From Lactimicrobium massiliense (GTDB lineage Bacteria; Bacillota_I; Bacilli_A; Erysipelotrichales; Erysipelotrichaceae), in contig NZ_OUNG01000001.1 of assembly GCF_900343155.1 (NCBI RefSeq), forward strand, positions 558,001 through 622,000: a stretch of 64,000 nucleotides of DNA, read 5' to 3'. Below the pieces are notes generated by a model, which did no database searches, was not told the DNA's origin, and saw only the letters and a program-made list of their open reading frames with translations. This document shows, in pieces, positions 3,449-13,521 of the stretch (positions are counted from its first letter, which is position 1; every line of letters starts with the position of its first letter). The position numbers and the translations under genes are program-made.

Positions 3449-3476
3449 CATGAAAAAAAGAAGATCATCGATCTTC

Positions 3477-5132
3477 TCAAAGGGCGTTGTAGAAACCTGC
3501 GGCAATGTTTGCCACATTGTTCAAACCAGCAGAACGCTCGAAGTTCACCCGGAAGTATGTACCTGCATCAGCAGCACCCTGGGCATCATCCGAGAAACTG
3601 TTCATGGTGGAGATCATGCCGCTGCCCATCTCTGAAACCATGAAGGCAACCTGGCCATCCACACTGCTGGAAGAATATCCATTGGCAGCACAGAACGCAG
3701 ACAGGTTGGAAACTCTGGATCCTCCCCACTGGCACAGGCCGTAGTAGCTGGATCCTGCATTGGGATTGAAGCTGGACTCAATCTGCATATTGGCCAGAAT
3801 GCCGGCCGCGGCCGCCTTGGTAAAACCATAGGAACCTGTCAGCAGGCTGTAAATGCTGGACGCATTGGCACCGGTATTGACAGATGCGGCTGCCGTTACC
3901 GTACTGCCGGAACCAGCAGATGAAGCAGCGGAAGCTGTTGTGACAACGACCTTCGGCTTGGCTTTTACGGTTACGGCAACAGAGGCATCCGATGCATTGC
4001 CATGATTATCAACCGCATGCACTGTCACCTCATACGTACCGGCTGTATTGGTATCCACATTGGAACTTACAGTATACCAGCCGTTTTCATACAGTCTGCC
4101 CTGGGCATCATTGACCAGCTGGGCAGGCTCTTCCTCAACCTGCGTCAAAGCACCATCGGCTGGATCCGCCACCGCAGCAACAACCGAATTGGCATCAAAG
4201 CTGTCACCTTCTGTCAGCTTTACAGAATCATTGGCAAGGGAAATCTCCGGTGCTCTTGTATCCTGCACCGTATAGGTGCGCTTCACACTCACTCTGGCTG
4301 TCTGACCATAGATATCAGAATCAGAAAGCTCATAATTGACTAGTGTATCGCCAACCTTGGAAAGATCCAGGCTGGAAGCACTTGTTTTCAATGTGCCAGT
4401 ATGGGCAGCGACCAGATCACTGACTGCCTTCTGGGCAGCCGGCTCATATTCAAAGACACTTGTCTCATTGCCGCTCTCATCGGTATCAAAGCTGATATTC
4501 AATGCGTCCATCATCTGCGTGTAGGACAGATCCCGTTTGCGTACCTGTGCCTGATGATAGGCATTGGCAGCTACACCGGCAGCCGCAATCGCACAGGCAC
4601 CGGACAGCAGCACCGGCATACTCAGAGTATGCGTCAGGCTCTGGCTGCGCTCCTGTTCCTGCGGAACAGCTGCATCCGCAGCCTCGGCATAATCCATTGC
4701 CAGCCTTGCCGGCACAGCCTTTGCCTTGACCGCATTGATCAATGGTGACGTCACCTCAGACACCGTCGGCTTATCCAGCTCTGCCTGGGCAGCCATGATC
4801 TCGCTTCTCTTCAATGTCCGGGTATAAGTATTGCGGATATCCTCACGGCGAGTATTCTCACTGAGAACCTGAACCAGATTCAGCTCAAAAAGATCCGGAT
4901 CAATATCCTCATGGTGATAGAACACTTCCGCAAAGGTCTTGCGGACAACAAACTCGGCCTGCTTGGCAGAAGCAATCGTATTGCGTGCCATTGCAAACAG
5001 ATCATCATGCAGAAGACGGTACATCCGCATCATGCAGTCACGGTCGCCAATCCGGATTCTTTCAGCAAGCTCCGGAATCGTCAGGCTTTCAATCTGTAAG
5101 CCCCCGTTCATTGTCAGCACATTCTCACTCAT
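3477..5132 (-). CDS. Membrane-anchored tail-lysozyme-like protein with sigma-70 region-2-like N-terminus
   Basis: A 551-residue protein in four parts. Residues about 20-75 resemble sigma-70 region 2 (acidic, amphipathic, core GDRDCMMRMYRLL), but no region 4 or other DNA-binding part follows. One hydrophobic helix near residue 170 (PVLLSGACAIAAAGVAA) would place the rest outside the cell. An Ig-like/DUF5011-type module follows (about 280-390), then an Ala/Ser-rich linker. The last 130 residues match the phage tail lysozyme family: AGILANMQIESSFNPNA with the likely catalytic Glu, then YGLCQWGG. I chose the ATG at 5132 because it lies about 10 nt after AAAGGAGG; the ATG at 5141 is only 1 nt from it. 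The cell-wall hydrolase call is well supported; the role of the N-terminus is unknown. Confidence 0.8.
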   Translation of the reverse strand: MSENVLTMNGGLQIESLTIPELAERIRIGDRDCMMRMYRLLHDDLFAMARNTIASAKQAEFVVRKTFAEVFYHHEDIDPDLFELNLVQVLSENTRREDIRNTYTRTLKRSEIMAAQAELDKPTVSEVTSPLINAVKAKAVPARLAMDYAEAADAAVPQEQERSQSLTHTLSMPVLLSGACAIAAAGVAANAYHQAQVRKRDLSYTQMMDALNISFDTDESGNETSVFEYEPAAQKAVSDLVAAHTGTLKTSASSLDLSKVGDTLVNYELSDSDIYGQTARVSVKRTYTVQDTRAPEISLANDSVKLTEGDSFDANSVVAAVADPADGALTQVEEEPAQLVNDAQGRLYENGWYTVSSNVDTNTAGTYEVTVHAVDNHGNASDASVAVTVKAKPKVVVTTASAASSAGSGSTVTAAASVNTGANASSIYSLLTGSYGFTKAAAAGILANMQIESSFNPNAGSSYYGLCQWGGSRVSNLSAFCAANGYSSSSVDGQVAFMVSEMGSGMISTMNSFSDDAQGAADAGTYFRVNFERSAGLNNVANIAAGFYNAL

Positions 5133-5221
5133 GCGGATCATCCCTCCTTTGCGTATACTGCTTATCAGTCTAGCACAAAATCACTGCTAGCACAAATCAG
5201 CCCGAAATCAAGCACGGATTA

Positions 5222-11754: not shown

Positions 11755-12981
11755 TTATGCAGCCTGTGATGTTTCCGGCACAGCATAGACAACACCGGAC
11801 GGATACATGCTGGACCACTGTGACCAGGTGTAGTATTTGTTTTCATTGACCTGACCTGTAGATCCCCATGCCTCAGATACCCACAGACCATTGTCATCAA
11901 CCTTTTCAACAAAAGCTGTGTGTCCGCTTGGATCACTGCCGACACCGGAGAAGATTGCGCCGGGTGCAGGTGAATTGGAAATGTAGAAATGTACACTCCA
12001 GGAGGATGATGCAGCTACGATGCCCCATGCCTGATCACGGCCGTTGCCATTGATCTTACCGGTCATAAAGCCATAATGCTGGGCGAAGCGGTAATGCATA
12101 TAGCCAACGCACTGCAGCTTGCCTTCCCATGTAAAGCCAACCCATTGTTTCAGCAGGGATACGTAGGAATCGCCATTGTAATACGTACCGGTTACCGGCG
12201 TATCAGATACAGAACCGGAAGAAGCTCCACCGCTGTGATCATACGCAGACAACTGGCTCTGCAAAGCAGCGGCCTGGGAGACATTCATGCCATTAGAGCT
12301 GGCAAGCTCTTCCGCCTGTGCCTCTGCCTGAGCAGCTTCCTCTTCACTTCTGGTAACCTCAGCCGGCTTGCGGACATTCACAAGATAAGAAATCTTGGTT
12401 GTATCGCCGCTGTCATCCACAAAGGTAAGCCAGCATGTATATGTTCCTTCCGTATTCATATCGACATTATCTGTCTCTTTGATGACCGGCAGCTTGCCTA
12501 CCGTCGAGGAAACATAACCAATGTTGTCGCCATACTTGAATTCTGAGCCAAGATCCACTGTTACTTCGCTCTGTTTCAGAATGACCTGCGGACCCTCTGA
12601 AGCAATCAGCTTAACAGCCGCATTTTCTGAGAAGGAATAGACAACACTGTCTGCGCTGTCATCCTTACGTACAATCTGGATACTGACCGTAATATTCTGA
12701 ATGCCGCTCTTAGTTCGGTTAAATGCCGAAGTATGAATTGTCGATTTGTCAAAATCAACCTCATTCAGGTTGATCGCTGCATCATAATCCGCTCGTTCCC
12801 TGATCGCCTGTTCTTTCAGCGTAGCAAGCGGATTCTGGTTATTCATATCAATCTCAAAGACTCTGACTTTGCTTGTTTCATCTGGTTTATGCTCATCCGC
12901 AAATACCGGTGATATCGGTGCTGCAATCACTGCAGCCAGTAAAAGCGATGTCAGAAATCTTGCTTTTCTTTTTCCGTACAT
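11755..12981 (-). CDS. Secreted CHAP-domain cell-wall hydrolase
   Basis: A 408-residue exported protein. The signal peptide (KARFLTSLLLAAVIAAP) ends near residue 28 at VFA. A beta-rich segment with a DUF5011/Ig-like module spans about 130-210, followed by a Glu/Ala/Gln-rich linker. The C-terminal 120 residues form a CHAP amidase/endopeptidase: the likely nucleophile is in LQCVGYMHYRF near 290 and the His in SGHTAFVEKV near 350. It probably cuts peptidoglycan peptides. The build resembles the lysozyme-like protein at 3477-5132: Ig-like module, low-complexity linker, C-terminal hydrolase. There is no Shine-Dalgarno sequence, and the promoter sits 6 nt from the ATG, so the mRNA may be leaderless. 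Confidence 0.88.
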   Translation of the reverse strand: MYGKRKARFLTSLLLAAVIAAPISPVFADEHKPDETSKVRVFEIDMNNQNPLATLKEQAIRERADYDAAINLNEVDFDKSTIHTSAFNRTKSGIQNITVSIQIVRKDDSADSVVYSFSENAAVKLIASEGPQVILKQSEVTVDLGSEFKYGDNIGYVSSTVGKLPVIKETDNVDMNTEGTYTCWLTFVDDSGDTTKISYLVNVRKPAEVTRSEEEAAQAEAQAEELASSNGMNVSQAAALQSQLSAYDHSGGASSGSVSDTPVTGTYYNGDSYVSLLKQWVGFTWEGKLQCVGYMHYRFAQHYGFMTGKINGNGRDQAWGIVAASSSWSVHFYISNSPAPGAIFSGVGSDPSGHTAFVEKVDDNGLWVSEAWGSTGQVNENKYYTWSQWSSMYPSGVVYAVPETSQAA

Positions 12982-13170: not shown

Positions 13171-13521
13171 TGGAGCTGGCGGGAGTCGAACCCGTGTCCA
13201 GGAATCGTCCCACATTCAGACCTCTACAGTTTAGTCCGCTGTTAGTAAGACAGCAGGTATGTCAGCGGTCTTACCGCCTGCTGAATGTGCCTGTAAGATT
13301 GTCGGGATCGGCCTCCAGGCTAAGCCTCACCGTATCTGTTCATTTACGCTCTGTCCGTCAAACAGCAAAGAACGGTCAGAGGATGCTGCATCGCGTAAAG
13401 CGAACTCAGGCAGCAAATGCGTAACTATTGTTGTTAGCGTTTATTTTTGTTTTGGTGATAAGGTCACCGCTCCACTGCAGTCCGAATCAAACTAAAAACC
13501 TGTCGAAACCATGACAGCCCC
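13171..13521 (-). ncRNA. ssrA: tmRNA (transfer-messenger RNA)
   Basis: A 351-nt tmRNA. The 5' end GGGGCTGTCATGGTTTCGAC carries the acceptor strand GGGGCUG, which pairs with CAGCUCC at the 3' end. The T arm GGGTTCGACTCCC is present; the CCA tail is not encoded. The tag reading frame ends NANNNSYAFAA with a TGA stop at 13406-13408; the exact resume codon is not certain. It rescues stalled ribosomes with SmpB, encoded 1.2 kb upstream on the same strand. A 5' leader of about 15 nt would need RNase P processing. Confidence 0.95.

Follow-up and report, generated by a model that had tools for sequence, protein, structure and literature searches.

A sigma region 2 fold on a predicted membrane-anchored wall lysozyme of Lactimicrobium massiliense, and its tethered sigma-factor relatives in Erysipelotrichaceae

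Why should a protein that begins like a sigma factor end in a phage-tail lysozyme? The question is raised by one gene in the window analysed here, a stretch of 64,000 nucleotides from Lactimicrobium massiliense. The initial annotation offered two answers for the N-terminal head: a sensor that links the state of the wall to transcription, or a domesticated sigma fold used for another contact. The answer depends on what the head is, what it has lost and where it came from.

Gene and domain architecture

The gene had been placed at 3477-5132 with no strand given; these limits hold, and the open reading frame lies on the minus strand (Table 1). ATG 5132 is the right start, since the spacing of the Shine-Dalgarno site fits (AAGGAGG lies 10 nt upstream on sequence inspection) and the ortholog (MSES..) begins at the matching Met. 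The longer frame from ATG 5141 was rejected, as that codon sits almost on the Shine-Dalgarno site. The gene is probably transcribed alone, because a terminator-like hairpin follows the stop codon, a divergent gene starts upstream at 5221 and a transposase gene lies downstream on the other strand. The flanks hold an IS transposase on one side, with permease and phasin/UbiB-like genes on the other, and a UbiB-like neighbour is common to this locus and that of the ortholog. Inspection of these flanks revealed no sigma, anti-sigma, protease or other partner gene adjoining the gene, and the open reading frame list of the window gave no adjoining region-4-only partner. Elsewhere in the window are a secreted Ig-like and CHAP protein whose Ig domains are related but which lacks a sigma head (11755-12981, minus strand) and a tmRNA gene with the tag ANNNSYAFAA (13171-13521, minus strand).

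Table 1. Features of the sigma-headed lysozyme gene, in window coordinates
Feature	Position	Strand	Basis
Whole gene, 551 aa	3477..5132	minus	Open reading frame; ATG 5132 by Shine-Dalgarno spacing and ortholog start
Shine-Dalgarno AAAGGAGG	5143..5150	minus	Sequence; 10 nt before ATG 5132
Sigma region 2-like head, residues 15-99	4836..5090	minus	HMM, shuffle control, AlphaFold/Foldseek/VIA-align
Region 2.2 core-contact positions, F61-V-V-R64-K65, not [DE]xxQ[EDN]	4938..4952	minus	Profile alignment
Linker, residues 100-168	4629..4835	minus	Mostly predicted disordered; occupies the place of region 4 in relatives
Hydrophobic segment/membrane helix, residues about 169-192	4557..4628	minus	Hydropathy; helix in model
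Stalk and first Ig-like domain, residues 193-285	4278..4556	minus	Fold match in model
Second Ig-like domain, residues 286-392	3957..4277	minus	Pfam Bact_surface_Ig-like/Big_3 below cut-off; fold
Phage_lysozyme2 domain, residues 423-551	3480..3866	minus	Pfam E 6.7e-27, over cut-off; phi29 gp13
Glu452	3777..3779	minus	Aligned with Glu45 of phi29 gp13; invariant in homologues
Terminator-like hairpin	3458..3478	minus	Directly after stop codon; consensus match only

Downstream of the head, the proposed succession of membrane helix, Ig-like and phage-tail-lysozyme domains is borne out by one hydrophobic segment, two Ig-like domains and a Phage_lysozyme2 match at E 7e-27. Both β-sandwich domains match bacterial Ig/Rib/cadherin-like folds in structure comparison of the model. 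The counterpart of Glu452 in phi29 gp13, Glu45, is the catalytic residue there. With a mean hydropathy of 1.87 the hydrophobic segment is modest, and an AxA-like motif at its end makes a cleaved signal peptide a possible alternative to a membrane helix.

Fold, signatures and ancestry of the head

Pfam and NCBIfam scans and a PDB sequence search detected no sigma domain in the head, and PF04542 (sigma-70 region 2) did not match the protein at its curated cut-off. A profile built from 21 sigma-type heads of same-genus proteins, with the window protein and its ortholog left out, did match it, at E 2.4e-6 among 4237 frames searched. The head scored 28.9 bits with this profile, against 8.1 for the best of 5000 shuffles, and profile-profile comparison gave P 2.7e-7 over residues 17-93 (numbered from Met 5141). 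The AlphaFold model, built from a three-row alignment, has a helical head (pLDDT 76, pTM 0.63) that matches ECF region 2 structures. Foldseek placed sigma factors at the top PDB ranks, with modest to weak E-values (0.06) for this small domain, and VIA-align superposed the head on AlgU with a Z of 11.6 and 2.0 Å over 88 residues. The sigma-like domain of PhyR was also among the fold matches (3t0y, Z 6.6). Because helical bundles can reach a Z such as that with AlgU, the assignment draws on profile, predicted fold and relatives jointly; on this combined basis the head is confirmed as a sigma region 2 fold, in agreement with the initial annotation. The reported absence of region 4 likewise stands, as the profile alignment stops near residue 93 and residues 115-168 are predicted to be disordered.

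The residues expected of a sigma factor have changed within this fold. At the equivalents of sigma70 D403/Q406/E407, which are core-binding positions, the window protein has F/R/K and its ortholog L/R/K (L-I-V-R-K), and the conserved Trp of region 2.3/2.4, the −10 tryptophan, is Asn in the window protein. Sigma region 2.2 contacts the β′ clamp, and the E407 equivalent (T. aquaticus E189) touches β′ Lys159 (PMC3174212). The [DE]..Q core signature is kept in 42 of 78 tethered heads, these being the rows of the 96 aligned heads with a helix after residue 150, which include the window protein (twice) and its ortholog; the Trp is kept in 80 of all 96. The F/R/K core positions, the Asn in place of Trp and the missing region 4 speak against core binding and against recognition of both −10 and −35 elements. 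Judged from its residues, the window protein is most likely not a working sigma factor, and its head would have lost RNA polymerase binding. The claim that this segment binds core RNA polymerase is therefore not upheld for the window copy, in which the core positions, region 4 and the −10 Trp have all gone.

One full-length ortholog with the same shortened head was found by genome search, in the same genus (L003/L032; 61% identical). The two share 67% of residues over the head but 33% over the linker; the corresponding values are 59-63% for the Ig domains and 75% for the lysozyme. The head, with a dN of 0.24 against 0.80 for the linker, aligns without gaps; dS is saturated for this pair, which leaves the dN/dS of the head not computable. 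From this single ortholog pair with saturated dS, the head fold looks to have been kept by selection, and its conservation argues for a function of the head.

Among the other proteins with this ectodomain, the majority either have the membrane helix at their very start or bear a pseudouridine synthase. When proteins are ranked on the Ig ectodomain and no other part, the ortholog L003, L204 and L033 come closest, all three with sigma heads. Region 4 is matched below curated cut-offs in both L204 (E 1e-4 and 2e-4) and L033 (E 0.006). In the ectodomain tree, the window protein and L003 are sister to L204 and L033 within one clade of moderate support (86/78). The window protein appears to descend from a tethered ECF, because its nearest ectodomain relatives are the sigma-headed ones and L204 and L033 have region 4. 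In the simplest history, the line that led to the window protein would have begun as a tethered sigma factor with both regions and then lost region 4.

Candidate functions of the head and known systems

Architecture, fold, ancestry, loss of the sigma signatures and conservation of the head are results of computation. We consider it probable that the window protein arose from a tethered ECF and became a membrane wall hydrolase, whose non-transcribing "pseudo-sigma" head was kept for another contact. It would be a single-pass membrane protein whose head lies in the cytoplasm and whose lysozyme, carried outside on two Ig-like domains, cleaves wall peptidoglycan. The ancestor would have been a one-component tethered ECF of the type abundant in Erysipelotrichaceae, with sigma regions 2 and 4 inside, one helix and a wall-facing ectodomain outside. 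By analogy with ECF52 and IutY, sensing of the wall would have fallen to this ectodomain, and transcription would have been driven by the sigma head once it was freed or exposed. With region 4, the core-binding residues and the −10 residues lost, the window copy would no longer direct transcription, and the region 2 fold may have been kept by selection as a protein-contact module with a new binding partner. This module would most likely either mimic a sigma factor towards a sigma-binding partner or serve as a cytoplasmic head that docks or anchors the wall lysozyme. Of the two roles first proposed, the domesticated sigma fold is the better one; the sensor of wall state is less favoured, given the F/R/K positions and the lost Trp.

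The first of these two partner types can be stated as a specific mechanism, in which the membrane-held head titrates an anti-sigma or other sigma-binding protein and so frees an ordinary ECF; in this form it is doubtful. PhyR mimics both sigma2 and sigma4, whereas the window head resembles sigma2 only and no anti-sigma candidate adjoins its gene. PhyR is also a cytoplasmic response regulator with a receiver domain and neither membrane helix nor wall domain, and the Pfam scan detected no receiver domain in the window protein. What makes the mechanism attractive is that PhyR, whose ECF-like fold has lost transcription activity and has degenerate contacts to core and promoter, works in this way (PMC8103513), that the window head shows the same pattern of loss and lies close enough to the PhyR domain for a fold match, and that the genome has a plain ECF (L118) that could be freed.

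An inert head, left over on what is simply an anchored wall lysozyme, appears rather unlikely. A sigma head is lacking in most homologues that share the ectodomain, so the lysozyme needs none. However, the head is far better conserved between species than the linker in identity, its dN is three times lower and its alignment has no gaps, and a sigma fold is still predicted for it.

Live signalling is improbable. Here proteolysis would free the head as one half of a split sigma factor, region 4 would come from another protein, and the state of the wall would be passed to transcription. The sigma-2 fold is indeed kept and conserved, and precedents exist: SigO-RsoA of Bacillus subtilis is a two-part sigma factor with sigma2 and sigma4 on separate proteins (PMC8103513), and tethered ECFs elsewhere are activated by proteolysis (PMC8999054). 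RsoA, like the window protein, is a single chain in which region 2 of sigma is present and region 4 is not; unlike the window protein, SigO-RsoA is active in transcription and has no membrane or wall domain. The core triad F/R/K, with charge reversal at the β′-contacting Glu, and the loss of the −10 Trp speak against such signalling, as do the lack of an adjoining region-4-only partner gene and genome G000, in which Pfam and head-profile searches found no complete tethered ECF.

The idea that an unrelated helical bundle resembles sigma region 2 by chance, which the null Pfam and NCBIfam scans and the weak Foldseek E-values might have suggested, was rejected as extremely improbable, because the best shuffle fell far below the score of the head, sigma folds fill the top structural ranks and both sigma regions, 2 and 4, occur in the closest ectodomain relatives.

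The window protein can be set beside several described systems. Tethered ECFs have been described in Actinobacteria as ECF48, ECF52 and ECF53, with SCO4117 of Streptomyces coelicolor as the studied case (PMC8999054, PMC5826349). Like the window protein, they join an N-terminal sigma module, a membrane helix and an extracellular C-terminal domain in one chain; unlike it, they keep regions 2 and 4, have a zinc-finger anti-sigma segment and are reported from Actinobacteria. Pfam and NCBIfam scans detected no zinc-finger anti-sigma segment before the membrane helix of the window protein, where the linker is mostly predicted to be disordered. ECF52 bears a carbohydrate-binding domain, in contrast to the Ig-like domains and lysozyme of the window protein. 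IutY of Pseudomonas putida (ECF243) is a sigma factor fused to a membrane-spanning partner and released by proteolysis (PMC8999054); unlike the window protein, it is a complete sigma factor fused to an anti-sigma factor, serves a siderophore system and has no wall hydrolase. Lysozymes of the phi29 gp13 type (Phage_lysozyme2) share the ectodomain family and the catalytic Glu, whereas phi29 gp13 is a phage tail protein without a cytoplasmic head.

Our literature search, outside which the 2021 ECF reclassification falls, returned nothing relevant on tethered ECFs in Firmicutes or Erysipelotrichaceae, and no description of a layout in Erysipelotrichaceae that lacks the zinc finger and places a wall hydrolase outside. 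The initial statement that no system of this layout has been described goes too far in principle, as tethered ECFs with ectodomains and IutY are known. The new part is the family context.

Tethered ECF proteins in Erysipelotrichaceae

The relatives were found through PF04542 and then through whole-protein searches in the genus and family. Fusions of sigma module, membrane helix and ectodomain proved common in Erysipelotrichaceae, and the ortholog with the same layout as the window protein lies in its genus. In many of these proteins an ECF sigma factor that has both region 2 and region 4 is joined by one membrane helix to an ectodomain, and canonical members pass Pfam cut-offs (PF04542, E to 1e-15; Sigma70_r4_2, E to 3e-14). 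Their ectodomains include SH3, NlpC/P60-like, WG repeats, VWA with lipase, Ig with NlpC/P60-like, and DUF3160. When the whole phylum was searched with a canonical tethered ECF, at a strict cut-off that weaker members could escape, further members came only from the same family.

The class is expanded in some genomes. Region-2 matches, a count that includes ordinary sigma factors, number 24-29 in each of five genomes examined from genus g34 (G476, G425, G375, G367, G460) and 70 in the one genome from genus g160 (G473, contamination 6%). Among the matches listed for g34 and G473, most lie in frames of at least 330 aa (330-490 aa). Each of the 11 loci read in G473 combines a sigma-type head with a hydrophobic segment and a further domain after it, and the membrane helix lies near residue 225-260 in the members read from expanded genomes. 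The window's own genome holds the window protein and one other match to the head profile; by Pfam, it has the one plain ECF besides larger sigma factors.

Tethered ECFs also occur in tandem. L109 (G013:C60) and L110 (G013:C9) have near-identical heads with differing ectodomains (WG and SH3; VWA, TSP3 and lipase), and the tandem arrays comprise four copies in 14 kb and two in 10 kb. In the L109/L110 arrays, the heads look copied while the ectodomains vary. A further, genus-wide group of sigma-like proteins with a membrane helix (L128, L129, L130, L133, L135, L152, L155 and others) keeps region 4 with an altered region 2.2 signature, a loss that is partial (for example in L128-L130 and L133), and has an SH3 ectodomain where tested. 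Pseudo-sigma heads probably arose more than once, because this SH3-ectodomain subgroup also shows partial signature loss in the alignment.

Tentatively, Erysipelotrichaceae might read their wall through a large class of tethered ECFs, up to dozens per genome, whose ectodomains bind or cleave the wall, with the window protein as a derived, non-transcribing arm that regulates other members of the class or the lysozyme through its sigma fold. These membrane-tethered sigma factors of gut and rumen bacteria, whose ectodomains suit the wall, look like an undescribed and strongly expanded class. The window protein illustrates how a tethered sensor can decay into a wall hydrolase that keeps the sigma fold only. 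If canonical members are released by proteolysis, they would be one-protein wall sensors without anti-sigma factors, and pseudo-sigma members would then be natural competitors or decoys.

A second unusual head occurs on the same ectodomain. In loci of the same genus, a pseudouridine synthase of the RluD type (PF00849, E 6e-35), with its GRLD motif intact, is followed by a membrane helix, Ig-like domains and the same phage-tail lysozyme (L051:3900-6605, L052, L058, L043, L045, L047, L049, L057 and others). Well over ten genomes encode this fusion in addition to their ordinary pseudouridine synthases. Its link between a cytoplasmic enzyme that modifies RNA and a wall hydrolase outside the cell is no less odd than the sigma fusion.
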